From a virus: a stretch of 25,274 nucleotides of DNA. Within the stretch, counting starts at the first letter, position 1; each line of letters opens with the position of its first letter. Shown piece after piece: positions 7,782 to 24,336 of this stretch. The stretch covers positions 1 through 25,274 of the IMG/VR virus record IMGVR_UViG_3300030060_005648. The stretch is one strand, 5' to 3'. The position numbers were made by a program, and so were the translations under genes. The notes beneath the pieces are model-generated. The model was not told the DNA's origin, did no database searches, and saw only the letters and a list, made by a program, of their open reading frames with translations.

Positions 7782-8282
7782 TTATAAATAAGTAGTTCCT
7801 TCAAAATCTATACCTGTTGCTTCTTTTCTAGTCATGTGAGCTGTGCATATAATAGATAAGCTGCTTCCAAACTTGTCTCCATACGAAGTTAAATTGTAAG
7901 ATTTGTTTCTTCCTACAAATAATTGGTTCTCAGTTACGTTATCTACTTCGTAATAATCTTCTTGCCAGTTAATTATATCACCAGCTTCTGGAATAACAGA
8001 AGAATCTTTCAAATCTTCTCTTAAAAACGCAAATGATACTTCTCTTTCAAGATCTGGTAGTGTTAAATCATTAATATCTATCACTTGATCACCTCTAGTT
8101 ATTAAACAATTAAGTTTAGCCGGTACAAAGTAAGTTTTACTTAATGATTCTCCGTATAAATTAGCTACAGTTTGGTCTAAGTTAATTTTATAGTAAATAA
8201 CTTCTTGTTCTATTATATCTTTTAATAGCTCTCTGTTGATATTTACTAATAAGTCAAAATCTCTATTACTTCCGAATAACAT
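7782..8282 (-). CDS. Putative neck protein (gp14-like)
   Basis: 166 aa, shorter than T4 gp14 (256 aa). It begins MLFGSNRDFDLLVNINRELL, a helical start, then EQEVIYYKINLDQTVANLYG, a segment FVPAKLNCLITRGDQ, the well-marked REVSFAFLREDLKD, GDIINWQEDYYEVDNVTENQ and FVGRNKSYNLTSYGD. The run of beta strands with FLR-x-D-L and E-D-Y-Y-E-V-D is one I associate with short neck/head-closure proteins of marine T4-like phages. Its ATG overlaps the stop of the 100-aa gene by one base (TAATG), suggesting coupled translation. It would join the gp13-like protein in the collar that seals the head to the tail. Evidence is pattern plus gene order. Confidence 0.6.
   Translation of the reverse strand: MLFGSNRDFDLLVNINRELLKDIIEQEVIYYKINLDQTVANLYGESLSKTYFVPAKLNCLITRGDQVIDINDLTLPDLEREVSFAFLREDLKDSSVIPEAGDIINWQEDYYEVDNVTENQLFVGRNKSYNLTSYGDKFGSSLSIICTAHMTRKEATGIDFEGTTYL
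7783..7790 (-). promoter_or_regulatory. TATTTATA boundary motif upstream of gp15-like gene
   Basis: Minus-strand TATTTATA overlapping the TAA of the gp14-like gene and ending 4 bases before the gp15-like ATG. Such a short distance would give almost no leader if it were a promoter, so a translation-linked role is equally possible. Confidence 0.3.
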
Positions 8283-8584
8283 TACTTATCTTCTATTGTG
8301 TTTTCAGCTATTTCTATATCTTTTATAAAACTATACTTATTCATAGCATTAGTTTTAAAAGCATTAAAAGCTTCTGTTGCTTCTTTTTGTGAAATTAGCT
8401 TTACTTTAAATGTTTCTCTATACTCTCCATCCCCAGAAGCTAATGTAACAGTAGTTACTCCAGGTAATGCTCTTAGTAATTCAGCTAAATTACCTACTTT
8501 TTCGCTTCCATCAAAAATTACTTGTACCATACCTTCGTATGTACTGTAATTAATCTCTTCTTTTAATATATCCAATAACTTCAT
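8282..8584 (-). CDS. Small uncharacterised neck-region protein
   Basis: 100 aa, overlapping both neighbours by one base (TAATG on each side). After a short helix (MKLLDILKEEI) comes a likely beta-alpha-beta fold: VQVIFDGSEKVGNLAELLR, LPGVTTVTLASGD, ETFKVKLISQKEATEAF, then YSFIKDIEIAENT. The pattern of a strand, helix, then L-P-G-V-T-x-V and another strand resembles ferredoxin- or ACT-like small domains. I know no characterised homologue. Lying between gp13-like and gp14-like genes, it is probably a connector component or assembly factor. Confidence 0.65.
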   Translation of the reverse strand: MKLLDILKEEINYSTYEGMVQVIFDGSEKVGNLAELLRALPGVTTVTLASGDGEYRETFKVKLISQKEATEAFNAFKTNAMNKYSFIKDIEIAENTIEDK

Positions 8585-10666: not shown

Positions 10667-12265
10667 TTATAAATCATTCATATCTGAAATAAAGACTTTT
10701 CCGTAGAATTCAGGTCTTATCATCTTCTTAGCATATCTAGTCATGATACCTTTTCTTGGAGTGAAGGTCTCAGGATCGTATACTAGAGGAGTCATAAGTA
10801 ATGGTATATACGGTGAGTAAACCGCTCCAGTTTCTAAGAATTGTGAACCTCTATATCCCATAAGAATAATATTCTCAGTCATATAAGGGTTTTTATAAAC
10901 TCTGAATCTGTTAGCTAAGCTTCCTACTCTTTGTACACCAAAGTTGAAATCAGCCTGATCTCCGTCAGTGTTAGCTGCATATCCTGGAATAGATTCTAGA
11001 ATAGTAGCAACGTTTGGAGAACATACTAAGAAGTTCGCACCACCTCTAAGAGTTTTTTGGTGAATCTTATTAGATACTTTTTGGATTTTAGTTCCTAAAG
11101 TTTGGAACCACTGTCCTTGAGTATTATAAAATCCTGGACTTAATGTAGCCCAAGCTGTACCATTCCAAACTTTGTTTGAAACGACAGACCATCTCTCAGT
11201 TGTTACTGCGTCATTAATAAGCATGTCTAGGATCTCAAGATCAATCTCCATTGAGATATACTCACTCAATAAAGAAGTTAACTCAGCCTCAGCGTCGATG
11301 CTGTGGTATGCGTTAAGATCTTGAGCGAATTCTGGAGTCCATTGTGCTTTTAGTTTTCTAGTTTTAGCAACAATTGCTTCACTAGCTAATCTTACGTCGA
11401 TAGACGGGATTTTAATAGATGTGTCAACAGCAGCAGTTGAATTTGCTTCGAAGTCACCTCTTGCGTTATCATCTGGTTGTACGTGATATAATACAGTAGA
11501 AGCAGGATTTTTAACTGTTAGGTTAGATGCAGTTACAACGAAAGTAACGTCATCACCAGATACAGTAGTTAATTCTGGGTTACTAGTAATATCTACAGAA
11601 GCAGAAAATAATCTAAATGCTCTAACTGCTTTATAATCAGGTCTTGCACCAGCGGCTTTTCCTGACAAATCAGCTGTAACAGTTCTAAATTCTGATACGA
11701 TTAGATCATCATTGTATCCAATTGAAGAAGAAACCGCAGATCCAGTAGTAATAGTTTCAGTGTGTGAAGCTGAATTTACTGTATATCCGAATTGTCCAGC
11801 GCCATAAAGACCACCAGAAACTTCCTCATCAACAGACATTTTGTTAGAAGCAGAAGATACATTACCATACAAGTTATCACCAGCTGTTCTTCCTCCTACA
11901 GAGTCTCCATATTTGAAGTCTAGGTAGAATACAAGTCCTGAAGGTAAATTCATTGGTTGTACAGAAACGAAATCTTGAGCAACGATTTGAGCAAATACTT
12001 TTCTAACTAAAGGTAGAGCTACACCAGCCCAGTTCTCACCAGCTCCAGCAGTGAAAGTAGCAGACCCTCCGTGACCGGAAGTGTTTGCTTCAGCAACGAT
12101 TTGTTTAGCTTGGTTTTCTAAGATAACAGCCATGTTATTTTTGACTCTATTATCTTCGATACCTTCTAACAAACCAGATGCTTCCCACTTAGAAGCTAAT
12201 TTTTCAGAATCCTTTAGCATGCTCTTATAAGTATTTGAGCTCTCTAATAGGTTGTTAATTTCCAT
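10667..12265 (-). CDS. 23: Major capsid protein (gp23-like)
   Basis: 532 aa, close to T4 gp23 (521 aa). The N-terminal ~59 residues are a helical, charged delta region ending QIVAE; the site V-A-E/A (E59/A60) matches the I/L-x-E consensus of T4-type prohead proteases, and T4 gp23 is cut after residue 65 in the same way. The mature chain would begin ANTSGHGGSATFTAGAGENW. Later hallmarks are FAQIVAQDFVSVQPMNLPSG, FYLDFKYGD, AKTRKLKAQWTPEFAQDLNA, HSIDAEAELTSLLSEYISME and a C-terminal GIMTRYAKKMIRPEFYGKVF. Together these identify an HK97-fold T4-superfamily capsid protein. It follows the scaffold gene and is closed by a strong terminator. Confidence 0.95.
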   Translation of the reverse strand: MEINNLLESSNTYKSMLKDSEKLASKWEASGLLEGIEDNRVKNNMAVILENQAKQIVAEANTSGHGGSATFTAGAGENWAGVALPLVRKVFAQIVAQDFVSVQPMNLPSGLVFYLDFKYGDSVGGRTAGDNLYGNVSSASNKMSVDEEVSGGLYGAGQFGYTVNSASHTETITTGSAVSSSIGYNDDLIVSEFRTVTADLSGKAAGARPDYKAVRAFRLFSASVDITSNPELTTVSGDDVTFVVTASNLTVKNPASTVLYHVQPDDNARGDFEANSTAAVDTSIKIPSIDVRLASEAIVAKTRKLKAQWTPEFAQDLNAYHSIDAEAELTSLLSEYISMEIDLEILDMLINDAVTTERWSVVSNKVWNGTAWATLSPGFYNTQGQWFQTLGTKIQKVSNKIHQKTLRGGANFLVCSPNVATILESIPGYAANTDGDQADFNFGVQRVGSLANRFRVYKNPYMTENIILMGYRGSQFLETGAVYSPYIPLLMTPLVYDPETFTPRKGIMTRYAKKMIRPEFYGKVFISDMNDL

Positions 12266-12290: not shown

Positions 12291-13496
12291 TTATTTAATA
12301 ATACCGGCTAATTTTTGCATTCTTCTAACAGTTTCAGAAACTTCATTAATTACTTCTGGTTTACCAGATGCAGTAGTTCCTGTTGCTTTAGATGCCATGC
12401 CTAGTTTAGTCTTAGCTTCTTTGATATTGTTTTTAGTTTCTTTTTTACTAACAACATTATCTGAAACTGTTTCATAAACTAATTTAACCTCTTTTACAGT
12501 TTCTGCTTTATCAAAAGCAGCTATAATGTTAACCTTTTGACTTTCAGAAAGGTCGTTTGATTTAAAGATTTTGTTAACGTAAAGTAATTTTGAATTTAGA
12601 ATATTTACTTCATTCAATTCACTTTTAAGAGTTTTGATAGTCTCTAAAGCTTGAGCTAGATCTGATTTGCTTTCTTCTAATGCTTGTTCTTCAGCATCTC
12701 CGATAACACCTTCAGCTTCTTTCTCAACTTCATTGAAATCCTCTTCACCGTCTTTATCTTCGTTAATATTTACGTCTACCTTCTGTCTGTGGTTATCAGC
12801 ATTAGGTTTAGCATTGAACTCGTCTAATTCTTCTTCACTTACTGAAGATTCAAGTTCTCTAATTAACTCATCAAGATCGATTTCTTCCTCGTCCTCACCA
12901 GGCATGTCCATTGGTTCTTCTACAGCATCAGGCTCATCACCCATACCTTCGATATCACCAGCATCCATATCCATAGCAGGCTCTTCGTCAGCGCCCATTT
13001 CTTGACTAATAATATCTCTAATTAAGTCTTTGAATTGATCTACACTTAAATCAGAAATATCCTCATCACCTTTAGGCTCGTCTTCAACCTCCGCTTCGTC
13101 CTCAGATTCGTCTGAGTCATCCTCCGCTTCGTTTTTTTCATCGTCAGCATGCATTGCTTCGTCTTTATTGTCTCCGTGAGCTTCCTCCATATCGTCGTCA
13201 TGTTTAGCTTCTTCTACTTCTTCAAGAGATTCTTCCATGTTATCTTTCTCCTTCTTAGGAGCTTCTTCCATGTTGTCTTTCTCTTTCTTAGGAGCTTCTT
13301 CCATAGTTTCGTCGTCTTTTTTCTTAGGCGCTTCTTCTATTTTAGAATCTTCCATTTCTTGTAGTTTTGCAGCTAACATATCTTTTAAATGTGGAGTTAG
13401 AGTTTCTTCTAATGCTTCCTTAGCGTTAGCAATAGCAGCAGCTCTTACAGACTTAGCTTCAGCAATAGCTTGCTTAAATAAATCTTTGTTTGCCAT
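12291..13496 (-). CDS. 22: Prohead core/scaffold protein (gp22-like)
   Basis: 401 aa, very acidic. The N-terminus MANKDLFKQAIAEAKSVRAA contains I-A-E/A at E13/A14, like the cleavage site near the start of T4 gp22. Residues about 57-89 carry an 11-residue tandem repeat (MEEAPKKEKDN) and residues 90-260 are dominated by Asp and Glu. The C-terminal third is a helical coiled coil (LAQALETIKTLKSELNEV, SKLLYVNKIFKSNDLSE) ending in VSETVRRMQKLAGIIK, an ending I associate with gp22-type proteins. In T4 such a protein forms the internal core that shapes the prohead and is destroyed by the gp21 protease. Position between protease and capsid genes matches T4. Length exceeds T4 gp22 (269 aa), mainly because of the acidic region. 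Confidence 0.88.
   Translation of the reverse strand: MANKDLFKQAIAEAKSVRAAAIANAKEALEETLTPHLKDMLAAKLQEMEDSKIEEAPKKKDDETMEEAPKKEKDNMEEAPKKEKDNMEESLEEVEEAKHDDDMEEAHGDNKDEAMHADDEKNEAEDDSDESEDEAEVEDEPKGDEDISDLSVDQFKDLIRDIISQEMGADEEPAMDMDAGDIEGMGDEPDAVEEPMDMPGEDEEEIDLDELIRELESSVSEEELDEFNAKPNADNHRQKVDVNINEDKDGEEDFNEVEKEAEGVIGDAEEQALEESKSDLAQALETIKTLKSELNEVNILNSKLLYVNKIFKSNDLSESQKVNIIAAFDKAETVKEVKLVYETVSDNVVSKKETKNNIKEAKTKLGMASKATGTTASGKPEVINEVSETVRRMQKLAGIIK
13226..13327 (-). repeat. Tandem 33-base repeat within the scaffold gene
   Basis: Three consecutive units at 13226-13258, 13259-13291 and 13292-13327 (the last 36 bases and diverged) encode variants of MEEAPKKEKDN. The first two differ at only a few bases, so the array is recent and may vary in copy number between relatives. 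Confidence 0.85.
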
Positions 13497-13636: not shown

Positions 13637-14491
13637 TTAAACTAAAGAGTACAGTGGATAGTAAAGTTCCATATACTTATCGTAAAGATCCTTATTACTT
13701 AATTTTCCTTCACTCCACGGGTCTAGTAAATCTTTCTGATAATTAGTGTTAAGTACTTCTTTTTGTTGCGCTTTGCTCAAGTAATCATCTTTACTCCCTC
13801 CTTTATCCCAAACACTAGAATCATCTCTAAAATGTCCAATTTTTCCATCACTTTTGTTTTCTTCTTGGAAAGCACTTTGAACAAAGAACATTGCCCTTGT
13901 TATTTCGATATGAAGAAAAAATCCTTCAGGATTAGGACCTGTAAATGTATCAACTGTTGCAACAGCGTAAATTGAACCTTCACCTTTTTCAGCTTCTGTA
14001 GGATCTTTTTTAAATGCATCTTTAAATGATACGGGTTCTTCTTTGTACACTACTGGTTCATCATCATCTTCTATGTAATAATCATCAATATCATCACCAA
14101 GTCTTTCGGTTTGAGGAAATAAATAATCTAAATAATTATCCCATTTATCATCGAATCCTTCATATCCGCTTTCTTCTTGATAATAACCAGCTATTAATTT
14201 ACCAATATCTGAAGCTGGTTCATCAAAATAATCGGCTACATCTTCAGCATCTTTCCAAGTTGCAGCTGCTTTCATAAAACTAACTATTTCTTCATCTTCA
14301 TAATCATCAAAACCATTTTGTTCTTGCATTATGCTATATACTTCACCAGCTAGATTATCATCTTTAACTTCAGGAAATTTTTTTTGAAAATCCTCCCATG
14401 AAAGATCAGCTATTGCTTCTTCTGAAATAAGCTTACTTTGAGCAGTAAGTTTGTTTTCAACTAAAAATTTTCTTAAATTAAAGTTTTTCAT
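13637..14491 (-). CDS. Acidic putative internal head protein with capsid-targeting-like leader
   Basis: 284 aa. Its ATG shares a base with the protease stop (TAATG). The first residues MKNFNLRKFLVENKLTAQSK match the leader of three other proteins in the window; L-V-E/N at residues 10-13 is a candidate prohead-protease site. The rest is strongly acidic (EDEEIVSFMKAA, DDIDDYYIEDDDEP) with many aromatic residues, and includes a more structured segment EGSIYAVATVDTFTGPNPEG and FFLHIEITRAMFFVQSAFQE. No enzyme family is recognisable. Lying between protease and scaffold, it is well placed to be a core component or a protein delivered inside the head. In T4, internal proteins carry such leaders; here the role is inferred. 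Confidence 0.75.
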   Translation of the reverse strand: MKNFNLRKFLVENKLTAQSKLISEEAIADLSWEDFQKKFPEVKDDNLAGEVYSIMQEQNGFDDYEDEEIVSFMKAAATWKDAEDVADYFDEPASDIGKLIAGYYQEESGYEGFDDKWDNYLDYLFPQTERLGDDIDDYYIEDDDEPVVYKEEPVSFKDAFKKDPTEAEKGEGSIYAVATVDTFTGPNPEGFFLHIEITRAMFFVQSAFQEENKSDGKIGHFRDDSSVWDKGGSKDDYLSKAQQKEVLNTNYQKDLLDPWSEGKLSNKDLYDKYMELYYPLYSLV

Positions 14492-15069
14492 TATGCTCTT
14501 AAAATATCGTTAATAATATTGTCTAGATTAAAATATTTAGATACTTTACCTTTACCTTCATTTAATGATACAGGGTTCATAAATGCACCATGTGTAGAAG
14601 GATTAGATACAAAGTCCCAGCATACTAGTTCAAAATCAGGCTGTACTTCTAAATGTCCTTCGTTTGTTTGTTGAACTGATCCGGTACCTCTAGATGATAT
14701 ACCAATAGTATGACCAGCTTTTATAATTTCTTTTACTATATTACCAGCAGGGGTATTCAATAGCTCTACCTTACCCATCAAGTCATCACCATCCCAATAT
14801 AACTCTTTAACTATGTGAGAAGCGTTTTTTAAAGAGACTACGGGCGTTTCAGGATGATCTAACTCTCCAAAAGCATTTCCTTTTTGAACGAACTCTTTCA
14901 CGTATTTTTCCGCTTCTCTTTTAAGAAGATCTTTACTATATACTCTACCGTTTTGATTCTCTGCTGAAGCTCTTTGCATTACTCCTTCAACTTCAAATAC
15001 ACCAGGTCTGGTTTTTGATTCTTTTAAGGTAGGTTTAAAAGGTGTTACGTCTACTAATAATTGTGCCAT
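14491..15069 (-). CDS. 21: Prohead maturation protease (gp21-like)
   Basis: 192 aa from ATG 15069 (MAQLLVDVTPFKP). An in-frame TTG at 15081 could add four residues but would overlap the upstream stop; the ATG lies 4 bases past it and is preferred. T4 gp21 is 212 aa. Hallmarks are GVMQRASAENQNGRVYSKDL, GNAFGELDHPETPVV with H72, and AGHTIGISSRGTGSV with S125/S126, which correspond to the catalytic His and Ser of T4-type prohead serine proteases with a herpesvirus-assemblin-like fold. The enzyme would cut scaffold, capsid and internal proteins after x-E. An L-K-E/S site at residues 15-18 could serve self-processing. Flanking genes encode proteins with likely cleavage sites. Confidence 0.92.
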   Translation of the reverse strand: MAQLLVDVTPFKPTLKESKTRPGVFEVEGVMQRASAENQNGRVYSKDLLKREAEKYVKEFVQKGNAFGELDHPETPVVSLKNASHIVKELYWDGDDLMGKVELLNTPAGNIVKEIIKAGHTIGISSRGTGSVQQTNEGHLEVQPDFELVCWDFVSNPSTHGAFMNPVSLNEGKGKVSKYFNLDNIINDILRA

Positions 15070-15073
15070 AATT

Positions 15074-15319
15074 TTATCCAATTAAGTCTTGTCTTCCGAT
15101 TGCTTTAAGAATAACTTCTGATCTTTTATCTAGATCTTGATAAGCTGCATCTTCTTGATTAAATTCAGCAGCACCATCTATTATAGCTTTTACAAATTCA
15201 GCAATAGATACTCCATTATTATCAGCAGCTATAAATTCTTGTATAGCTTGTGAAGCTAATTGTTCATTAACTGTAGTTTTATTTTCAGCTAAAAATTTTC
15301 TTAAATCGAAGGTTTTCAT
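15074..15319 (-). CDS. Small putative internal head protein with capsid-targeting-like leader
   Basis: 81 aa. It opens MKTFDLRKFLAENKTTVNEQ, with L-A-E/N at residues 10-13 as candidate prohead-protease site. After removal of 12 residues about 69 would remain: a helical, mildly acidic domain (ASQAIQEFIAADNNGVSIAE, FVKAIIDGAAEFNQED, SEVILKAIGRQDLIG) without known motifs. It starts 12 bases after the 202-aa gene and stops 4 bases before the protease ATG. Size is comparable to T4 internal and core proteins, but no sequence similarity is claimed beyond the leader logic. Confidence 0.75.
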   Translation of the reverse strand: MKTFDLRKFLAENKTTVNEQLASQAIQEFIAADNNGVSIAEFVKAIIDGAAEFNQEDAAYQDLDKRSEVILKAIGRQDLIG

Positions 15320-15331
15320 TTTTTATTCTTT

Positions 15332-15940
15332 TTATTTTATTGCTCCTTTATCTTTTAAGGCTTGAACGTACATATCAGCATATTCTTCATAAGGAACCTC
15401 TAAATCTATTCCTTTTTGTTTTCTTGCTTGACCACGATAATAATCATCTAATTCTTGTGCTAAACCTTGTCTTATGTCGTAGTTCTTCTTATTAAACCCA
15501 GGAATATCAAGTTCTGGGTATTTTGTTCTCCATACTTTATTTAAATTCCTTTTATCATGAGTATGGTAATACCAATCTTCATGTCTATTTGATCCTGCTT
15601 CATCCCATATCATTGTTCTAACTACAGGAACACCTAATTGTCTTTTCATCACACCATAGGATATATACTCATAATCTTCATCCTGAAAGTATTTAATTAT
15701 ATCAGCCGGTGCTTTGCCTTTAATACCTTTTGCTAATTTATCACTTATTGTAACTCCATGTTCTTCATCCAGAAATATAAGTATAGCTTTATCTCTATCA
15801 CTATATGATTCTATATCTTCAATATCTTCAAAAACTTCAGGTGAACCCATTGAAAGATATTTTTTTACGAATCTTGAAGATACATCTTCTTTTAGTAAAC
15901 GATTTTCTGCTAAATATTTTCTTAAGTCAAAATTTTTCAT
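15332..15940 (-). CDS. Putative internal head protein with capsid-targeting-like leader
   Basis: 202 aa, ATG 5 bases after the 779-aa gene. It begins MKNFDLRKYLAENRLLKEDV, the same leader as at 14491, 15319 and 24336, with L-A-E/N at residues 10-13. The remaining ~190 residues look like a folded soluble protein with mixed charge: ESYSDRDKAILIFLDEEHGV, TISDKLAKGIKGKAPADI, RQLGVPVVRTMIWDEAGS, RHEDWYYHTHDKRNLNKVWR and ELDDYYRGQARKQKG. Clustered His, Trp and Tyr around residues 118-135 hint at a binding or catalytic site, but I recognise no family. If packaged with DNA it might act in the host at infection; that is speculation. Confidence 0.72.
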   Translation of the reverse strand: MKNFDLRKYLAENRLLKEDVSSRFVKKYLSMGSPEVFEDIEDIESYSDRDKAILIFLDEEHGVTISDKLAKGIKGKAPADIIKYFQDEDYEYISYGVMKRQLGVPVVRTMIWDEAGSNRHEDWYYHTHDKRNLNKVWRTKYPELDIPGFNKKNYDIRQGLAQELDDYYRGQARKQKGIDLEVPYEEYADMYVQALKDKGAIK

Positions 15941-15945
15941 TTACT

Positions 15946-18285
15946 TTATTTATTCTTTTTTTCGTTAATACCAAAAATATTCTTCTTAGGGCCTTCTTGA
16001 GCTATAGGTAATGATCTGACTGGTTTAATGTTAGGTAAATTTAATCCTCCTGTAAAGTTATTTTTCATAACAGGTCTCAAATCTTTTTTGAATGCGCTTT
16101 CAATAGCTGGAGCTAAAAATCCTCCTACTTTTAATCCTTCATCATTTTTTATTTCTCCTAACTTATCGTAAACTTTCTGTATCTTTTCTCTAGTTCTTTC
16201 GTAAAATGATTCTATATCATTTACTACATTTTGAAGATCGATAACAGATTGTTTCATTCCTGCAAAGCTTTCGTAGTCATCAGCTATTTTAGCTAGTTGA
16301 TTAGTAGCGGCTTCTTCAATCATATCATCTTTTAAACTTTTTTTAATAATACCTTTGATAGCTTCTTTAAGTTGTACAGATTGTTTTTCTGTGATTCTAT
16401 ATTCTTCAACTTCAGCTTCTGGTTCTACTACTTCATCATCTGCTAAATCTTTTAAGAACTCTAATGCTCTTTTTAATTTAGGATTAGCAAATAAAGCAGG
16501 TTGTTCTTTATCGTCTACTTGGTCTACAAACTTTAAAATAGCTTGAGCCATAGTTTTAGGATTTTTAACGTTAGTATTTATTCTAGTTAAAGTAGCAGAA
16601 GGAATTTCTTCTTCATCAACTCTATCGTAATTAGCATCTACAAATAGATCAAAATGAAATACAGGATCTTTTCCGAAATCTCCATCCATTATATCATTTT
16701 TATGTGTTTTGATATAATCCTTAATAAGAGAATCTATACCGGGTATCTCTCCATACTTTTCTTTTATCTTACCAATATGAGATGCTAATACTTCTTTTAA
16801 TACTTTTCTTGTATCAGCAGCACCGCCTGTATAGTTGCTAGGAGAATCAGTTTTAACTTTACCTTTTCTATCGATATTCATTACTTCATCTTTACCCATA
16901 GCTTTTTTGATAGCTTTATCTTTAGCAGCCATATAATCATCTGAATCTATATCTCCATCACCATCATGATCTTTTCCTTTGTCTTCAGAAGCCATATAGA
17001 TAGGTTCGATAGCTTTTGTAATTTCTTGTGCAATTGCTAGTTCTTCATTCTTATCTTCTTCTTCATATTGTTCTTCTAAGTTTTCTGAAATAGAATAAAT
17101 AGCATCTAGCTCAGATGTACCGTCTTGTTCATCCATCAAGGCCTCAGCTTCTGTAAATAATTCGTTAAATACTCCACGTACTACATCTTCATCATGACTA
17201 GATGATAATTTACTTTCTAAGAATTTTTTAATATCTGGGAGTGTTGCTACGTATTTTTGTTTAAAAGGTATACTTTCTTCTTCGTTCTTTTTTCTTTTGT
17301 GGCCATGATGAGAAGATGTAATAACTTCTAATTCGTTTAAAGGTATATTTTTTACTGTCTTACTTCCTTCTTTAAAAAATACATCATAATGAGTTACTGT
17401 TCCATCTTCTAATAAAGTATGCTCTCCTTCTAAACAAATACCATGTCCATATTTTTCATGTAATACATGATTAGCACAATCATGCTCAATTTCTTTCTCT
17501 TCGTCTTTTTTATCTATAGTTTCCTTAATATAATTAACTAGATTCTTTTTAAACATTTTTAATGCTTTGTTTCCTTCTTCTTCATCTTCATGTTTAAAAG
17601 CATCAATTGCAGTATTGAGGTCTTGATTAGGTGTGTGATAATTTACATCTTCTAATGAGTTATAAATCTTCATCATATGCTCTACCTCTTCTCCTGATGC
17701 TCCTTTACCAGGATCTACTTCCGGAATAGCCATTGCAGCTCTAATCATTCCTCCGTAATCAAAGTTTTCAGAATATTTATCTCCTGGTTGATATGCTTCT
17801 TTTAAAGTAGCTTTTTTCATTCCGTTGAAAGTATCAACGTTATTTTTCTTACCTACTGGGACCATCTGATCGTTTTTATTTACTTTATCAGATTCGTTAC
17901 CAACTAAGTTTATATAATGAGAAGGATTTTTTTCTAAGTTGTCTTTTGCTTTCTTTTCTGCTTTAAAAAAGTCGTCAGCATTAAGAGTCATATGAGGCAT
18001 TAATCCAGCTGCTTGCAACTCAATTCTTATTCCTCTATCTAAAGCATCTAATGAATAAGTTAAGGCAGGTCTTTCATCGTATGATTTTGTTTTAGTAGGT
18101 TTTTTTTCAGCCTTAGCTTCAAAAACTAATCCTCTGTTTTTAAGAATTTGTACTGAATCGTCAAATCCATTGAATTGAGATATAAAATCAGGGAACTGTT
18201 GTCTCATCTGTCTAACAAATTCTCCTTTAGCCATCTTGCCTTCTTGGACGGCTCTAAATTTTTCAGTTGCTGTTTGTTGTCTCAT
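15946..18285 (-). CDS. Large putative head-assembly protein with EF-hand-like loop
   Basis: 779 aa, charged, predicted largely helical and multi-domain. Residues ~1-55 form a helical start (EKFRAVQEGKMAKGEFVRQM). Around residues 270-315 a compact segment with C270, HEKYGHGICLEGEHTLLED and THYDVFFKEGSKTVKNIPLN looks like a small SH3/KOW-type barrel, ending in a His/Lys cluster SSHHGHKRKK. Residues 439-450 are DHDGDGDIDSDD, a good EF-hand calcium loop (D1, D3, D5, G6, I8, D12). The C-terminal 150 residues include coiled coil (VIDLQNVVNDIESFYERTRE). Several x-E/A sites (such as V-F-E/A near 54-57) could be cut by the prohead protease. It fills the place of T4 genes 67/68 between portal and protease, so a core or internal protein is likely; exact role unknown. 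Confidence 0.72.
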   Translation of the reverse strand: MRQQTATEKFRAVQEGKMAKGEFVRQMRQQFPDFISQFNGFDDSVQILKNRGLVFEAKAEKKPTKTKSYDERPALTYSLDALDRGIRIELQAAGLMPHMTLNADDFFKAEKKAKDNLEKNPSHYINLVGNESDKVNKNDQMVPVGKKNNVDTFNGMKKATLKEAYQPGDKYSENFDYGGMIRAAMAIPEVDPGKGASGEEVEHMMKIYNSLEDVNYHTPNQDLNTAIDAFKHEDEEEGNKALKMFKKNLVNYIKETIDKKDEEKEIEHDCANHVLHEKYGHGICLEGEHTLLEDGTVTHYDVFFKEGSKTVKNIPLNELEVITSSHHGHKRKKNEEESIPFKQKYVATLPDIKKFLESKLSSSHDEDVVRGVFNELFTEAEALMDEQDGTSELDAIYSISENLEEQYEEEDKNEELAIAQEITKAIEPIYMASEDKGKDHDGDGDIDSDDYMAAKDKAIKKAMGKDEVMNIDRKGKVKTDSPSNYTGGAADTRKVLKEVLASHIGKIKEKYGEIPGIDSLIKDYIKTHKNDIMDGDFGKDPVFHFDLFVDANYDRVDEEEIPSATLTRINTNVKNPKTMAQAILKFVDQVDDKEQPALFANPKLKRALEFLKDLADDEVVEPEAEVEEYRITEKQSVQLKEAIKGIIKKSLKDDMIEEAATNQLAKIADDYESFAGMKQSVIDLQNVVNDIESFYERTREKIQKVYDKLGEIKNDEGLKVGGFLAPAIESAFKKDLRPVMKNNFTGGLNLPNIKPVRSLPIAQEGPKKNIFGINEKKNK

Positions 18286-18287
18286 GT

Positions 18288-18518
18288 CTATAAATAGTCA
18301 AATGCTTTAGTATGATATGGCCTATCTGGACGGCTTATTTTTTTGAAACCTAGACTCTTTGAAACTTTAAGAGCTTTTTTTGCTTTACCAAAAGCGCCCG
18401 GTGTTGCATAATTTTCTCCAGCACCAGGAGTAAAAGAAGCAGATCCGCCAGATACGTTTGCTTCTTGCAATTCAGATAGTACTTCTCTTACTAATTGAAT
18501 TACTTGAGACCTTGTCAT
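18288..18518 (-). CDS. Small head protein mimicking the mature capsid N-terminus
   Basis: 76 aa; ATG overlaps the preceding stop (ATGA). The first 19 residues (MTRSQVIQLVREVLSELQE) form a helix ending in L-Q-E/A, a candidate prohead-protease site. The next residues, ANVSGGSASFTPGAGENYA, align with the capsid protein directly after its own cleavage site (residues 60-80), with 15 of 19 aligned positions identical when two capsid residues are gapped. The tail is basic (GKAKKALKVSKSLGFKKISR). T4 has a small core gene, 67, in this place; no homology to it is claimed. A short basic, cleavable protein sharing the capsid arm sequence may be incorporated in the prohead shell or core. That the two share a motif is seen; the function is inference. 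Confidence 0.78.
   Translation of the reverse strand: MTRSQVIQLVREVLSELQEANVSGGSASFTPGAGENYATPGAFGKAKKALKVSKSLGFKKISRPDRPYHTKAFDYL
18289..18297 (-). promoter_or_regulatory. CTATTTATA boundary motif before the 779-aa gene
   Basis: Minus-strand CTATTTATA overlaps the last codons and stop of the 76-aa gene (GAC TAT TTA TAG) and ends 3 bases before the 779-aa ATG. Part of the match is forced by coding sequence, which weakens this copy as a promoter. Confidence 0.25.
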
Positions 18519-19369
18519 AAGTTTTTTAATTCATTTACAAGATCGTAATATTGCATAAGATTAACTAAATGAGTATCATTTACTTTTTCAGTTTTAGCTA
18601 AAGGAGTAATATTTTTTACTACTTCCTGTAGTTTAATCTTAACAACATCATCTTTTACTTTTGTAATTAATTTATTAACTTCTTTTAAAATATTATCAAA
18701 TTCTTTATTTACTAATTTATAAAGTCTACGATTAGAGTTTACTGATGTAATAAATTCTTTAAGAATATTTTTTTGTTCAGGTAATAAATCTTTATACTTA
18801 TCATTAAATTTTTCTAATAAAATTTTAAATGTAAGCATTTTTAAATCTTTGTCGTATTTACTGTAGTCTTCTATTAAACTGTCTTTAACAGCATCTTTTT
18901 CCTGAGGATTAGAAGTTAGATGTTCTAAAATAGTAAACTTATTATCAACTAAAAATTGAGGGTCTACTAAATTACTATTATTCTGAGCTTCTAATAAGCA
19001 GTACAGAGCAGCTAGAGGTTTATAAGCTCTAACTTCCATTCCAAAAAACTCTTCTAAATTATAATGTTTTTTAATTTCAGATATAAGCTCATATTTTTGA
19101 GCTTTTAAAGTTTTTTGATCTAATTTTCTTGAAACTTCAGTAATAGTGGATAAAACAGCTTCTGCTTTACTCTGTATAAGTTTATTATTTTTTATAAGGA
19201 ACTCATATAGTTTATACTCTTTTGCTAAAGTACTTTTGTTACTATAGAATTTTTTAAGTATTTCTATAGCTTTTGAGTCTTTATTGTCTAGGGTATCTGC
19301 TGCTATTTGTTTAACTAACAGTTCAAATATGAGACCAGTATTACGATACTTCGAATGCTTTATCTTCAT
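18515..19369 (-). CDS. Uncharacterised helical protein after the portal gene
   Basis: 284 aa, Lys- and Leu-rich and predicted almost entirely alpha-helical. It begins MKIKHSKYRNTGLIFELLVK and continues QIAADTLDNKDSKAIEILKK, FYSNKSTLAKEYKLYEFLIK, LEEFFGMEVRAYKPLAALY and LPEQKNILKEFITSVNSNRR, ending in VNLMQYYDLVNELKNL. There is no targeting leader, membrane span or enzyme motif. I recall similar openings among proteins of uncultured marine T4-like phages next to the portal gene but know no function. Its stop overlaps the start of the 76-aa head protein by 4 bases, so the two are probably co-translated. A portal-associated or prohead-initiation role is possible. Confidence 0.7.
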   Translation of the reverse strand: MKIKHSKYRNTGLIFELLVKQIAADTLDNKDSKAIEILKKFYSNKSTLAKEYKLYEFLIKNNKLIQSKAEAVLSTITEVSRKLDQKTLKAQKYELISEIKKHYNLEEFFGMEVRAYKPLAALYCLLEAQNNSNLVDPQFLVDNKFTILEHLTSNPQEKDAVKDSLIEDYSKYDKDLKMLTFKILLEKFNDKYKDLLPEQKNILKEFITSVNSNRRLYKLVNKEFDNILKEVNKLITKVKDDVVKIKLQEVVKNITPLAKTEKVNDTHLVNLMQYYDLVNELKNL

Positions 19370-19385
19370 TATATACGTTTACTAT

Positions 19386-19393
19386 TATAAATA
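19386..19393 (-). promoter_or_regulatory. TATTTATA boundary motif before the 284-aa gene
   Basis: Minus-strand TATTTATA in the 28-base gap after the portal gene, ending 16 bases before the ATG at 19369, a spacing almost equal to that of the portal copy (17 bases). Confidence 0.4.
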
Positions 19394-19397
19394 TGTA

Positions 19398-21293
19398 TTA
19401 TTTACCTAAATCCTTGATATTGTCTTCTTTTAGTAACTCGCTATCGTCATCTTTAGATTTTTTGAAAACAATATCTTTCAACATATCTTTATTTTGTAGA
19501 TAAACTTTCTCTGTAGAGTTGGTTTCCATAACATTATCATTGTCGGAAGGGTAGCCTCCTTTCATGCCTTGCTGACCTAAAGGATCTCTTCCTCCCATAG
19601 GGTTATCATTAGTGCCATATATAGAAGCTTTTTCTCTTGGTCTTCCTCCTTCAGGACCTGGCTGTCCCCACTCAGGTGTATCTTCATACCCTGTAGGAAC
19701 TTCTCCTGGACCTGCTCCTTTTGGTGTAGAAGTAGATCTTCTACCGTACATTGAAGCAAGATCATGAGGTGTACCGTAAGTAGTACCTGATTTAGCTGGG
19801 TCATTACCTTCTCCTTCTATCTGTCCTATTCTAAATAGTCTTTTAGAATCTTCTCTAACTAAATCTCTCATTTCATTATACTTATCTTCTGACATATCAA
19901 ATATGTTTTCGTATATATAATCAGATGAGAATAATTTAGTATCTTTCATTTGATTAGCAAGATCAACTTTTTCTTTTAAGAGAGCTACTTTTTCTTGTTC
20001 AAATATAATAGACGGAGTAGTAAGTTTAATTTCAAAGTTAGTTAAACTTTCACCGGTAAATCCTTGAGAATATAAGTGAACTAATGCTATTTTAGTTAAC
20101 TCTGATTCCATAATTCGTTGAACTCTTTCAACTGTTCTAGCGAATCTTATATCTTCAGCAGCTAAAGTTGCTTTTCCTTGTAAATCTCCTTCATATCCGA
20201 AGTATGCTTTTGGAATCTTAAGTGCTGCAAACATTTTTTGTTGCAAATATTGTACGTCAGTTACACCATCGTAATCTAATCCTTTAGTAGTTTCAATTCT
20301 TGTAGATGTATCTCCTCCTCTAACAGGTAGATAATAATCCTCCATCATATTCTGTAGATTAAATTTAAGGTTATATTGTCCTTGATCATCTACATAAGGA
20401 GTTTTTTTCATTTGGTTGATAGTTTTTTGCATAAACTGCTCAACTTCATTAGGAGGTACGTTTCCTACATTAATATAGAACATTCTTTTTTCAGGAGATC
20501 TCATTATTCTATGAATTAACATAGCATCTTCCATCAAAGTAACTTGTTTAAATATTTTTCTTGCAGGCTCTAAATAAGATCTACCGTAAGGTAAGTAATG
20601 AGTATCTGAGATTAACCTAAAATGAGCTATTTCGTAATTATCAAATTCAACTATTTTATCGTTCTTTTTTCTTTTAGGTAAATATTGAGGATTTTGTGAT
20701 GATGCTAAACCATCTGGATCTAATTGAAAAATAACTTTAGCAGGATTATCTGGGTCTTCTCCTTCTCTTCTTACCATATGGTATACGGTATAAGGTAAAA
20801 CGTTATAAACTCCAAATTTTTCTGAGATTTCTAATTTTAAAAAGAAATCACCGTACTTACACATATTTCTAGTCCATGACCATAAGTTAAATTCTATATT
20901 TAAGACATCATAAAATAAGTTATAAAGTACTCTTTGTATATTTTCGTCAGAAGATTTTATAGCTAATATTTCATTTTGGTCATTTTTTACTGTAGCTTCA
21001 TCAGAAAGTATGTCAAGTGCAGAAGCAACCAATGGATCTGTATCCATAGCTTCATAATCTGAATATAATTGTATCCTAAGTGTTTGATAATTTAAGTTAG
21101 GATTAAATATATTTTTATTATTGTAGATATATAATCTAGTAAATCTATCTATTAAGGAATTCGTCTGGTATCTACCTGTTCGTTGTATAGTATTGACATC
21201 AGCTATTTTTAGCTCATTGCCACCTACATTCCTTACTACAACATCTGAGGAAAATAGTCTTCGTAGTCTACCAAAAAGTGAAGTATCTGCCAT
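19398..21293 (-). CDS. 20: Portal protein (gp20-like)
   Basis: 631 aa (T4 gp20 is 524 aa). The start MADTSLFGRLRRLFSSDVVV is followed by typical portal elements: RTGRYQTNSLIDRFTRLYIY, DYEAMDTDPLVASALDILSD, SWTRNMCKYGDFFLKLEISE, LPYGRSYLEPARKIFKQVTL, HRIMRSPEKRMFYINVGNVP, KTINQMKKTPYVDDQGQYNL, EDYYLPVRGGDTSTRIETTK and ALKIPKAYFGYEGDLQGKAT. The dodecameric portal sits at one capsid vertex, docks the terminase and passes DNA. The extra length is a Gly/Pro-rich C-terminal region from about residue 500 (TYGTPHDLASMYGRRST, AGPGEVPTGYEDTPEWGQPG) that looks disordered. It follows the terminase with a 27-base gap and no sheath or tube gene between. Confidence 0.93.
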   Translation of the reverse strand: MADTSLFGRLRRLFSSDVVVRNVGGNELKIADVNTIQRTGRYQTNSLIDRFTRLYIYNNKNIFNPNLNYQTLRIQLYSDYEAMDTDPLVASALDILSDEATVKNDQNEILAIKSSDENIQRVLYNLFYDVLNIEFNLWSWTRNMCKYGDFFLKLEISEKFGVYNVLPYTVYHMVRREGEDPDNPAKVIFQLDPDGLASSQNPQYLPKRKKNDKIVEFDNYEIAHFRLISDTHYLPYGRSYLEPARKIFKQVTLMEDAMLIHRIMRSPEKRMFYINVGNVPPNEVEQFMQKTINQMKKTPYVDDQGQYNLKFNLQNMMEDYYLPVRGGDTSTRIETTKGLDYDGVTDVQYLQQKMFAALKIPKAYFGYEGDLQGKATLAAEDIRFARTVERVQRIMESELTKIALVHLYSQGFTGESLTNFEIKLTTPSIIFEQEKVALLKEKVDLANQMKDTKLFSSDYIYENIFDMSEDKYNEMRDLVREDSKRLFRIGQIEGEGNDPAKSGTTYGTPHDLASMYGRRSTSTPKGAGPGEVPTGYEDTPEWGQPGPEGGRPREKASIYGTNDNPMGGRDPLGQQGMKGGYPSDNDNVMETNSTEKVYLQNKDMLKDIVFKKSKDDDSELLKEDNIKDLGK

Positions 21294-21310
21294 TAAACGT
21301 TTAATTTATA

Positions 21311-21320
21311 TATAAATAGT
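21311..21320 (-). promoter_or_regulatory. ACTATTTATA boundary motif before the portal gene
   Basis: Minus-strand ACTATTTATA starts right after the terminase TAG and ends 17 bases before the portal ATG. A transcript starting about 6 bases downstream would have a leader near 11 bases. Confidence 0.4.
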
Positions 21321-22895
21321 CTATTTTAGTAACCAAGTAATATCTTCGGTACCACCTGGCGTCTTTATAAGATAAGGATTTTCTTTCTTATTTCCAACTG
21401 TTTTTATAACAGCTTGGTTTCTAGCATTCAAATTGCTAAAAGAAGATAATTGAGCTCTAGCTAAATCCATTCCCTGTTGTCTTAATCTTAAAGCAGTATC
21501 TCTAACATATAGAGCTGATGCGCAAGACATAATTAAATCGTCATTATATCTGGTTTGAGCTTGAGCTTTTCCGTTTTTCCATATGAAAACACGCATTTCT
21601 TGTAATAATCTTTTAGATTGAAACGTAACAGACTTTTCTCTAACGTATTCAATCATTTTTGCTATAACTAAAGGTCGTGTTCTCATAGACATAGTAAAGC
21701 CTGGTACTAGTTTATCTCTTTCATACTTATGCATATAAGATTCAACAGTATCTAATTGATTAGTTGGGCTGTAATATAAGTTTCTATACTCTCTTTCTAA
21801 GATCTGTTCTATAGTAGCCCATCCAATATTAGCATTTTCTACTACTAATAAAGCATCATTATACTCAGATGCTATAGCTACGAGTACATTACCGAAATCT
21901 TTAGGTGCTATTTTACCTTTATATTCAGCTACTTGAACACAATTATCTATATCGAATACATGAAATGCAGAGTAGTCAGTAGAATCTCCTCTAGCTACGT
22001 CAGCACACACCATATATGATTTACTGTAATCAGCAGATTCCCAAATCCATAAATTACCATCAACTCCTCTTCTTTCCATAGGTTCTTTTTCATAAGTTTG
22101 TTCATAGTAAGTCATATCTTCAGGTTCAAATACCGTATCTCCAGAAGCAAGAAAGTCACAATCACATTCTTGACCTGCCATTCTTGGACCTAAATCTGCA
22201 TCTTGTTGTTCTCTCCACTTTTGATCTCTTTCAGGATGAACTGTCCATGGTAATCTTATAGGAATAAAACTATTTTCTTTTACTACTGCTTTTTCCCATG
22301 TAAGATGAAACCAGTTACCTACACCATTAGGAGTAGATAAAGCCATACATTGACCACCTGTAGCTAATGTTTGTTGTGCTGCAGTAAACGTTTCATCAAT
22401 ATTATCTATAAACGCCGCCTCATCAATTAGAAGTAATGATACTGCTTCTGATCTTGCTGCATCAGTATTAGAAGACTTAGCTGCTATTCTTGAACCGTTT
22501 TTTAATCTTAATGATAATTTATTTTTTTCTACTGAGGGTAGTTTCAACCATTTAGGAAGCTGGTCATACATAAAGATAACTTTAGTAACTAAGTTTCTAG
22601 CTGTAGCTTGAGTGGTTGCTAATGCTAATACGTTTTTATCTTTATGAAATATCATTAACCAGAGAGAATAAGCTGCTGATAATGTAGATATACCTAGCTG
22701 TCTTGACTTTAAAGTAATGACATATTGATTATCTTTAAATACATGAAGTATTTTTTCTTGAAAAGGGTATAAGTTAAAAAGAATCCTACCTCTAGTAGGG
22801 TGCTGAATATAGCAGTACTTTCTCATAAAGTACGCCGGATCTTTAGCGCACTTAAGATACTCTTGTGCGATTATTTTTTTTATATCTTGTGCCAT
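21321..22895 (-). CDS. 17: Terminase large subunit (gp17-like)
   Basis: 524 aa (T4 gp17 is 610 aa). ATPase part: an adenine-side motif LYPFQEKIL near 42-50, a Walker A variant SRQLGIST at residues 64-71 lacking the usual GK-[ST] lysine (K63 lies just before it), and Walker B LLLIDEAAFID. Nuclease part: D299 in CADVARGDSTDYSAFHVFD, E353 in LLVVENANIGW and D452/D453 in YNDDLIMSCAS form the RNase-H-like acidic set that matches T4 D401, E458 and D542. The enzyme packs DNA through the portal and cuts the concatemer. The start is 2 bases after the upstream stop. No small terminase subunit gene is recognised in the window. Confidence 0.95.
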   Translation of the reverse strand: MAQDIKKIIAQEYLKCAKDPAYFMRKYCYIQHPTRGRILFNLYPFQEKILHVFKDNQYVITLKSRQLGISTLSAAYSLWLMIFHKDKNVLALATTQATARNLVTKVIFMYDQLPKWLKLPSVEKNKLSLRLKNGSRIAAKSSNTDAARSEAVSLLLIDEAAFIDNIDETFTAAQQTLATGGQCMALSTPNGVGNWFHLTWEKAVVKENSFIPIRLPWTVHPERDQKWREQQDADLGPRMAGQECDCDFLASGDTVFEPEDMTYYEQTYEKEPMERRGVDGNLWIWESADYSKSYMVCADVARGDSTDYSAFHVFDIDNCVQVAEYKGKIAPKDFGNVLVAIASEYNDALLVVENANIGWATIEQILEREYRNLYYSPTNQLDTVESYMHKYERDKLVPGFTMSMRTRPLVIAKMIEYVREKSVTFQSKRLLQEMRVFIWKNGKAQAQTRYNDDLIMSCASALYVRDTALRLRQQGMDLARAQLSSFSNLNARNQAVIKTVGNKKENPYLIKTPGGTEDITWLLK

Positions 22896-22897
22896 AA

Positions 22898-24040
22898 CTA
22901 ATCTACTTCGTTATAATCTATCGTTCTTCCTTGCGAGGATAACTTAGATTGATAAGCAGGTAAAATTCTAAAATCCAACCCATAAGGTTGATTTTTGTGT
23001 TGCATTATTACAAACATAGGTTCGTATTGAGAACCGTCTATTTGACTTTTTTTAGTAAAAACAAACTGTGTATCAATTGTAACAGTATTACTATCGTTAT
23101 CAAATTCAAAATGACTATCATTAAAATCTTGTATAGCAATTACTGTTTTTGGATCATCCGTTCCAAACATAAACTTTTCATCTTCTATTGCAGGAAAATT
23201 ATCTACAACTATTTTAGTAACTCTTCCTTTAGTATTTTGGTCTATCATTAAGTATCTATCGTCTCTATGAGATTCAGGGTTAGGTACTAGACCTATAGGG
23301 TAATCATCATCATTTAACGATTTATTAACGAAATTTTTTCTAAACTCAGATACCTTGCCTCCTATAGAAGCCCATCTAAATCCATTTTGATATTCTTTAA
23401 CTGAGATATTACCTACTGTGTTTTGATTTGATAAAAGCTGTACGTCGGCTTTTTGTCCTTCTTTTGTGTTAGTAGAAGCATCTATTGCACCAGTTACATT
23501 ATCTACTTTATGAGTTACTCCGTTTTTACCTTTAAATATTACGTTTATGAATCCTCCAGCTGCTAATGAATTTATACTATTAAGAAGTTTTTCTTCGTTT
23601 TCTTTTCCACCAGTACCTTTTTTACCTGTACTTACATTTACTAGTACTTCACCAAATTTTTTAGAATCAAATCTTAATGCTGGTACTGAGTTTCTTTCGT
23701 TACCAGGGCCTCCTGCAGCTATATATGCAACGTCTTCAGGTTTAATCTTAAAAATATTTGCAATAAACTTTTTTAACCCGTCTTCATCTTTAATAGTTAG
23801 AATATTAATTCTATTTCTATATTTACCAGTTTTAAAAGACTTAACATTATTTTCTTTTCCGGATGGACTATCAGCTATATATTGAGCTGCTTTAATGTTA
23901 TTTTTAGTAGTTATTTCCTCGTTGAGATTTATATTAAAAAGAGATTGGAATACCCTTATATCATCTTCGTTGTTAAGATCAGGATATCCTTTTTTGGTTC
24001 TATATGACCATTCTAATATTACTCTATCTATAAGATTCAT
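22898..24040 (-). CDS. Putative PD-(D/E)XK-like nuclease or packaging-associated protein
   Basis: 380 aa; ATG shares a base with the preceding stop (TAATG). The N-terminus has MNLIDRVILEWSYRTKKGYP and DDIRVFQSLFNINLNEE, perhaps an adaptor. The central region has ENEEKLLNSI (E147, E149, E150), EGQKADVQLLSNQNTVGNI with D199 and ISVKEYQNGFRWAS with K215. An acidic helix, then D, about 15 residues, then S-V-K is a layout seen in divergent PD-(D/E)XK nucleases where the usual E before K is replaced. The rest is beta-rich (TVTIDTQFVFTKKSQIDGSQ). The nuclease reading is tentative; it depends on three conserved-looking residues. Directly upstream of the terminase, a DNA-processing or packaging role would fit. 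A structural protein is the alternative. Confidence 0.7.
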   Translation of the reverse strand: MNLIDRVILEWSYRTKKGYPDLNNEDDIRVFQSLFNINLNEEITTKNNIKAAQYIADSPSGKENNVKSFKTGKYRNRINILTIKDEDGLKKFIANIFKIKPEDVAYIAAGGPGNERNSVPALRFDSKKFGEVLVNVSTGKKGTGGKENEEKLLNSINSLAAGGFINVIFKGKNGVTHKVDNVTGAIDASTNTKEGQKADVQLLSNQNTVGNISVKEYQNGFRWASIGGKVSEFRKNFVNKSLNDDDYPIGLVPNPESHRDDRYLMIDQNTKGRVTKIVVDNFPAIEDEKFMFGTDDPKTVIAIQDFNDSHFEFDNDSNTVTIDTQFVFTKKSQIDGSQYEPMFVIMQHKNQPYGLDFRILPAYQSKLSSQGRTIDYNEVD

Positions 24041-24336
24041 TAGTCTCTTTTTAGATCTTGTTCTGGCATATCGATATCATCAGGATTTTTTTCAAAGCTT
24101 GTATTAGTTAAAGTATATTCAACTTTTCTTACATTTTTACCATCTTTGTCTCTAACATATACCTCTACTCCTGCAATTGCTCCTAATTTTATTAAATCAT
24201 CAAGTTGATCTCCTGATATTCCTATACCGGTAGGGGCCATTTCTTCATCTAATTGAGAATTGCTTTCAGATAACTGGGCATTAGTGGTTACTTTATTTTC
24301 AATTAAAAATTTTCTAAGATTAAAATTATTTTTCAT
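24040..24336 (-). CDS. Small putative internal head protein with capsid-targeting-like leader
   Basis: 98 aa, ATG 10 bases after the preceding gene. The leader MKNNFNLRKFLIENKVTTNA has one more Asn than the other three copies; L-I-E/N (residues 11-14) is the candidate prohead-protease site. The remaining ~85 residues are acidic and include GIGISGDQLDDLIKLGAIAG and VEVYVRDKDGKNVRKVEYTL, possibly a small helix-plus-strand domain. It is separated from the other three leader-bearing genes by the nuclease-like, terminase and portal genes. Packaging inside the head is inferred from the leader only. Confidence 0.72.
   Translation of the reverse strand: MKNNFNLRKFLIENKVTTNAQLSESNSQLDEEMAPTGIGISGDQLDDLIKLGAIAGVEVYVRDKDGKNVRKVEYTLTNTSFEKNPDDIDMPEQDLKRD

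Follow-up and report, generated by a model that had tools for sequence, protein, structure and literature searches.

A shared N-terminal leader on many proteins of T4-type phages as a candidate capsid-targeting propeptide

We discuss here a short N-terminal peptide, the leader or tag, which opens four otherwise dissimilar proteins in a 25,274-nucleotide stretch of viral DNA (IMG/VR record IMGVR_UViG_3300030060_005648, positions 1 to 25,274, the whole of which we call the window) and many proteins of related phages. The closest described systems are the internal proteins of phage T4, which have propeptides of 10-19 residues (PMC9026906; this and the other papers cited are represented here by parts of their text). 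In the case of IPIII the first 10 residues suffice, with targeting depending mainly on residues 4 and 7 and processing on residues 8 and 10, and the listed activity of IPI is inhibition of a type IV restriction enzyme (PMC9026906). In the T4 genome record NC_000866, IPII and IPIII open MKTYQEFIAE-A and IPI opens MKTFKEFTSTTTPVSTITE-A, with no earlier [LI]-x-E, and because of this and the 10-19 residue range the IPI cut is probably at ITE-19.

Several sites within one propeptide are known for T4 gp23 and for SPN3US (PMC5694885). The head propeptides of SPN3US and phiKZ are also removed by a prohead protease, and the paralogs gp53 and gp54 have the same 15 N-terminal residues but have otherwise diverged. 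However several of these propeptides exceed 100 residues, and in the text available to us sharing is described for two paralogs and not for many unrelated proteins (PMC5694885). In phage P1 an N-terminal signal sends DarB to the capsid, but this is another phage type, and the available text describes the signal for DarB and a reporter fusion (PMC9024508).

The leader discussed here is like those of T4 IPI, IPII and IPIII in being a short N-terminal peptide, apparently a propeptide, on unrelated proteins, with an aromatic N-terminal half, an [IL]-x-E end and variable length, in genomes that have a gp21-type protease. It differs in being mostly about 18-24 residues long and conserved throughout, in standing before 101 clusters of cargo, and in having copies fused in frame.

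The leader in the window and its relatives

The minus-strand open reading frames that start at 24336, 15940, 15319 and 14491 open with MKNNFNLRKFLIENK, MKNFDLRKYLAENR, MKTFDLRKFLAENK and MKNFNLRKFLVENK respectively. The initial annotation had reported a near-identical N-terminal peptide on these four proteins, and its motif, as a regular expression, matched four times in a six-frame translation of the window and never in 200 single-base shuffles. That three of the four genes flank the gp21-like protease gene is also borne out, with 15332-15940 and 15074-15319 before it and 13637-14491 after it. The likeness had however been thought to end at EN[KR], and this does not hold, as three of the four continue K-x-T-x-x-x-x-L. 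The genes and leaders concerned are:

24040..24336, minus strand: tagged 98-aa protein, second gene upstream of the terminase gene, without Pfam or PHROG match
24265..24336, minus strand: leader of the 98-aa protein, MKNNFNLRKFLIENKVTTNAQLSE; an alternative end, LDE-31, is kept in relatives L008 and L022
15332..15940, minus strand: tagged 202-aa protein, without Pfam or PHROG match
15887..15940, minus strand: short-type leader of the 202-aa protein, MKNFDLRKYLAENRLLKE; predicted cut after LKE-18
15074..15319, minus strand: tagged 81-aa protein, without Pfam or PHROG match
15263..15319, minus strand: leader of the 81-aa protein, MKTFDLRKFLAENKTTVNE
14491..15081, minus strand: gp21-type prohead protease, Peptidase_S77 (PF03420), by profile and PHROG matches
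13637..14491, minus strand: tagged 284-aa protein, without Pfam or PHROG match
14420..14491, minus strand: leader of the 284-aa protein, MKNFNLRKFLVENKLTAQSKLISE; predicted cut after ISE-24

At the junction of the 202-aa protein LLKE before DVS is kept in L306, L307 and L308, the cargo of the 81-aa protein sits behind RVLKE in L239, and a relative of the N-terminal domain of the 284-aa protein is found behind a leader of the short (Y) type in L305. A structure prediction for the 202-aa protein was too poor for use (mean pLDDT 54.5).

The search for the motif in relatives that the initial annotation had proposed does find further tagged genes. Our sample was 300 sequences (the window and fetched loci, 3.37 Mb, some overlapping), searched with a broader regular expression and with each distinct 50-aa start counted once; the scan of viral contigs listed at least 120 stretches, and every count from it is a lower bound. 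There are 184 distinct copies of the core, of which 179 lie at most 6 residues from a possible start codon, some of these continuing an upstream frame with ATG at the tag. The remaining five were omitted from the profile: four are tags within fused proteins, and the fifth, in L186, is a chance match inside an ATPase.

Among 50,697 phage records the consensus leader (tblastn, E <=10) matched only the four records of Flavobacterium phage immuto, the nearest isolate found, in which a profile of 34 leaders locates four copies, at 1803, 103809, 117637 and 118632. The tagged immuto proteins are gp003, gp076, gp077 and gp092, and in gp076 the predicted cut is after LKE-24. A degenerate DNA pattern for the core gave only four stretches, on three contigs, in 257 Gb of prokaryote genomes; three of these matches are on one 104-kb contig of a metagenome-assembled genome that also holds gp21-type and gp23 genes, one is the chance match of L186, and one is on a 7.4-kb contig. 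The latter (L184, PBPJ01000018.1) is binned as Woesearchaeota and is perhaps a misbinned phage contig. In Microcystis phage Mel-JY01 none of the 29 annotated gene starts listed for record bases 8000-32000 has the tag. A pattern search of the fetched loci for a second leader type, FDIHxWQAK, found three distinct copies. Literature searches, including searches for terms within the accessible text of PMC4360716 and PMC7198788, found no report of the leader, with subscription journals mostly outside their coverage.

With regard to the cargo, 187 tagged proteins gave 183 cargo sequences (those under 30 aa left out), which fall into 101 single-linkage clusters (E 1e-3, leader removed). The leader is thus a module common to otherwise unrelated proteins, as had been proposed from the four in the window. 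With one member per cluster, there were matches at E <=0.01 to 9 Pfam families, 14 PHROGs and 10 PADLOC entries, each by a single member; the best Pfam match was to an HD domain (2.1e-6, not traced to a given protein), and we did not accept the PADLOC matches as defence functions. One tagged protein (L221:193-1044) is a P-loop protein with weak likeness to AAA_18 and dNK (deoxynucleoside kinase), below the Pfam cut-offs, for which a sequence search of the PDB gave no match. A C-terminal module, FIDExDLDDHLENxHxEWEKWK (L304, L308, L015), ends two tagged proteins and also occurs alone behind the tag, and the cargo is therefore itself modular.

The leader also goes with the protease gene. Of 17 tag-selected viral contigs of at least 60 kb, 14 have a PF03420 protease, and the other three have no gp23 or terminase match either (the terminase search of these had no positive control), so that their head genes are probably outside the fragment. 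Wherever gp23 was found on a tagged contig, the protease was present too. The 20 records first tested all have PF03420 and PF07068, ten of them having been chosen beforehand for protease or capsid likeness or as the isolate. The tag may adjoin the protease gene (G004, G010) or be over 100 kb from it in record coordinates (G005), and some cargo can have other leaders. The 268,739-base contig of L297 (G026) has two gp21-type protease and two gp23 genes, about 200 kb apart, either through a genuine duplication or because two phages were joined in assembly. Two gp23 matches have in-frame stops (G014:C55:37764-39218, three TAA; G025:C1:150626-152065, one TAA), possibly from an insert or sequence error.

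The end of the leader and the exchange of leaders

The 179 leaders comprise 108 of F type and 71 of Y type. In the F type the columns are informative from the core to a Glu at +20 (1.64 bits) and drop to 0.44 at the next residue and lower after that, which is a sharp end, and the Y-type leaders are shorter and often end K-L-L-K-E. The search patterns fixed the core and left the second half free, and a second [LIVM]xE is present in 170 of the 179 leaders, against 54/171, 52/152 and 53/126 in length-matched control windows. When each cargo cluster is represented by a single leader and 16 residues are examined, the figures are 94/101 for leaders and 18/99 for controls.

In relatives a different start precedes some of the cargo families, although many of the 119 untagged cargo matches are cargo domains within larger proteins that have no short leader. 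In one pair MKLADIIFE|SDEQQLGAEL corresponds to the tagged MENSFNLRKFL..EILKE|SDENQLGAEL, and in another MKDFDIHEWQAKYLRE|SVEF corresponds to MDNFDLKKYLVENRLHQE|SVEF. Leaders are thus exchanged, and the homology of the cargo begins near the distal site.

The largest cargo family (alignment A3, 40 rows, for example L113:940-1470 and L287:757-1344), which in many relatives is encoded directly after the protease, has 14 tagged members and 26 with other starts, many of the latter being MK[LI]xx[LI][IL][LF]E before S. [LIVM]xE occurs within residues 1-20 of all 26 untagged starts; in residues 61-80 it occurs in 7 of the 40 rows. One row (L182:5806-6354), with 18% identity, is a manual addition of doubtful membership, and cluster members L195 and L201 were left out. 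Only one column of the alignment is invariant, a Glu within the cargo that has [LVI]-x before it in 37 of the 40 rows and lies ahead of a partly hydrophobic stretch; this points to a second cut here, after which the mature part would be partly hydrophobic. A structure prediction for this family had a mean pLDDT of 59.6, again too poor for use. In the window a 100-aa protein downstream of the capsid gene (8282-8584) begins MKLLDILKE before EINYS, resembling the short leaders of relatives.

Tags fused in frame to an upstream protein give a further view of the junction. In the family of immuto gp077, 12 of the 15 listed homologs are fused to a downstream tag, and in 11 of these there is an [LVM]xE at most 12 aa before the tag, eight times as ALQE, against 1714 of 4352 control positions (0.39). 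Of the three unfused homologs, two, one of them from immuto, lack the linker and end KKEDK. A fusion from another family, in L010, has L-K-E before the tag. The immuto gp077 protein (NC_055915.1:117631-118632) is itself tagged, and is annotated as a cob(I)alamin adenosyltransferase, which is doubtful.

The end of the leader can be compared with sites in two head-region proteins of the window:

10667..12265, minus strand: major capsid protein gp23 (PF07068), by family matches
12089..12097, minus strand: site at which the capsid protein is likely matured, V-A-E-59 followed by A, from comparison of relatives
18288..18518, minus strand: 76-aa protein encoded between the portal and protease genes; it has an L-Q-E-19 of its own, followed by ANVSGG

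The capsid site is [VI]-x-E in all of 107 distinct relatives, 105 by pattern (99 with V and 6 with I) and two by eye. After its L-Q-E the 76-aa protein reads ANVSGGSASFTPGAGENYATP, which resembles the capsid protein after V-A-E, ANTSGHGGSATFTAGAGENWAG, and both are found in many relatives.

Function of the leader and alternatives

We think it quite probable, from the sequence comparisons, that the leader is a modular capsid-targeting propeptide that works like those of T4 and whose main cutting site for the S77 protease is the distal [LIVM]-x-E. The N-terminal half, which follows M plus two or three residues and reads F-[DN]-L-[KR]-K-[FY]-L-x-E-[NG], would bind the prohead core; the second half, which is K-L-T-x-N-S-[KR]-x-L-x-E in long leaders and often K-L-L-K-E in short ones, would end at the [LIVM]-x-E at which the gp21-type protease of the same genome cuts, leaving the cargo free inside the head. 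The leader is found copied onto many unrelated genes, other short leaders can take its place, and the cargo may be ejected into the host. The capsid-targeting role proposed in the initial annotation is thus in part well supported as a reading of the sequences, with its cut site, length and scope corrected.

Several observations weigh against this. [LIVM]xE is a weak motif, present in 31-42% of 26-aa control windows, and L247, the tagged copy of one exchange pair, reads H-Q-E at the junction. The 12 gp077-family fusions are related to each other and therefore are not independent events, several fusions retain an ATG at the tag, and in the fusion L211 the L-x-E is 22 residues away. The tag was found in only 39 of 160 loci selected for protease or capsid (some overlapping, and in each the stretch examined only), and of the 20 records with protease and gp23 three gave no match to the tag at E <=1 and one more gave a match at 0.07 only. 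We looked in the literature for virion proteomics of any tag carrier and found none. Alignment with the T4 leaders was no better than with shuffles, 437, 614 and 804 of 1000 scoring equal or higher; homology being undetectable, we liken the leader to a capsid targeting sequence in its mode of action and make no claim of descent.

The initial annotation had the leader cut at the first L-x-E, after LVE and before N-[KR]. This is compatible with capsid targeting, and both sites may be cut, but as the main site it is probably wrong and we regard it as unlikely. The E and N at this site are almost invariant, so that it too could be cut, although the invariance is partly imposed since the search patterns required it, and both the 10-residue IPII and IPIII openings and the multi-site propeptides noted above would provide precedents. 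However in F-type leaders conservation runs on for up to 12 residues, to the second [LIVM]xE, and therefore a mature end at N-[KR] is probably not final; the start of cargo homology near the distal site and the lack of an earlier [LI]-x-E in T4 IPI also speak for the distal site. That the leader is an uncut anchor, binding core or shell and staying attached, we find somewhat more doubtful still: the evidence for cleavage comes so far from sequence and the targeting half could act alone, but the module ends at [LIVM]xE, fused tags are mostly preceded by such a site, and in one family the other leaders contain it as well.

Two further alternatives are in our view very improbable, and to about the same degree. 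In one the conserved start is a recombination tag or translation-start element, kept through DNA copying or expression and not as a peptide address. We compared leader copies in 62 within-locus pairs (L001-L003 were left out, hence there are no pairs from the window), in which residues agree at 752 of 868 positions. Where the residue is the same the codons agree at 0.76, against 0.57 expected from codon usage, and because of this excess we take the copies to share recent DNA ancestry, as this alternative would have it. However the 390 differences fall 108, 63 and 219 at first, second and third codon positions, which suggests that the peptide is kept by selection, though this is a weak point, and one to be counted against our own view, as the copies were chosen by peptide; the four tags within fused proteins lack a nearby start codon of their own. 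In the other the leader addresses its cargo elsewhere, to the host membrane, portal or tail, and merely co-occurs with T4-type heads. The distance of tagged genes from head genes in some records and the hydrophobic stretches in the largest cargo family would fit this, but the leader ends at the same kind of site as the capsid protein of the lineage.

The phage and the wider role of the leader

The window can be recognised as the head-gene part of a T4-type phage from its terminase, portal, S77 protease and gp23 capsid protein genes. The protease (14491-15081) matches Peptidase_S77 at E 1.2e-32 (113.4 bits against a cut-off of 27) and phrog_207 at 1.2e-52, and as most relatives align from residue 5 its start is probably the ATG at 15069. 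Other genes of the region are:

12291..13496, minus strand: acidic protein of 401 aa, encoded between the genes for the protease and the capsid protein, without family match; from its position and composition likely the scaffold
22898-24040: 380-aa gene between the 98-aa tagged gene and the terminase gene

Among named phages in the collection the immuto records come closest, with 74.1% identity for the protease and 69.8% for the capsid protein, gp23 being 35.2% identical to that of RM378 (pairwise identities only). Far-T4 is the literature name for an environmental group that has been linked to marine Bacteroidetes (PMC4360716, PMC7198788, in the text available), and the window phage may belong with this group. 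The tag-carrying viruses of the T4 group probably infect Bacteroidetes.

We give roughly even chances to a broader proposal, that T4-like phages of Bacteroidetes have an open address system, in which one recombining, protease-cleaved tag is carried by at least 100 protein families, among them a membrane-seeking protein, a kinase-like protein with a P-loop, and tandem fusions that the protease would cut apart. Genome sequence alone would then show which proteins are delivered to the host. This would be the known leader trick of T4 widened to many proteins. As the same cargo is found behind different leaders, there is also a natural test of what a capsid address requires. If the proposal is true, a short pattern would list candidate capsid-carried and possibly injected proteins in uncultured phages, with few of the cargo clusters having a family match, and, given the listing of T4 IPI as a restriction enzyme inhibitor, these may be a source of candidate counter-defence proteins.

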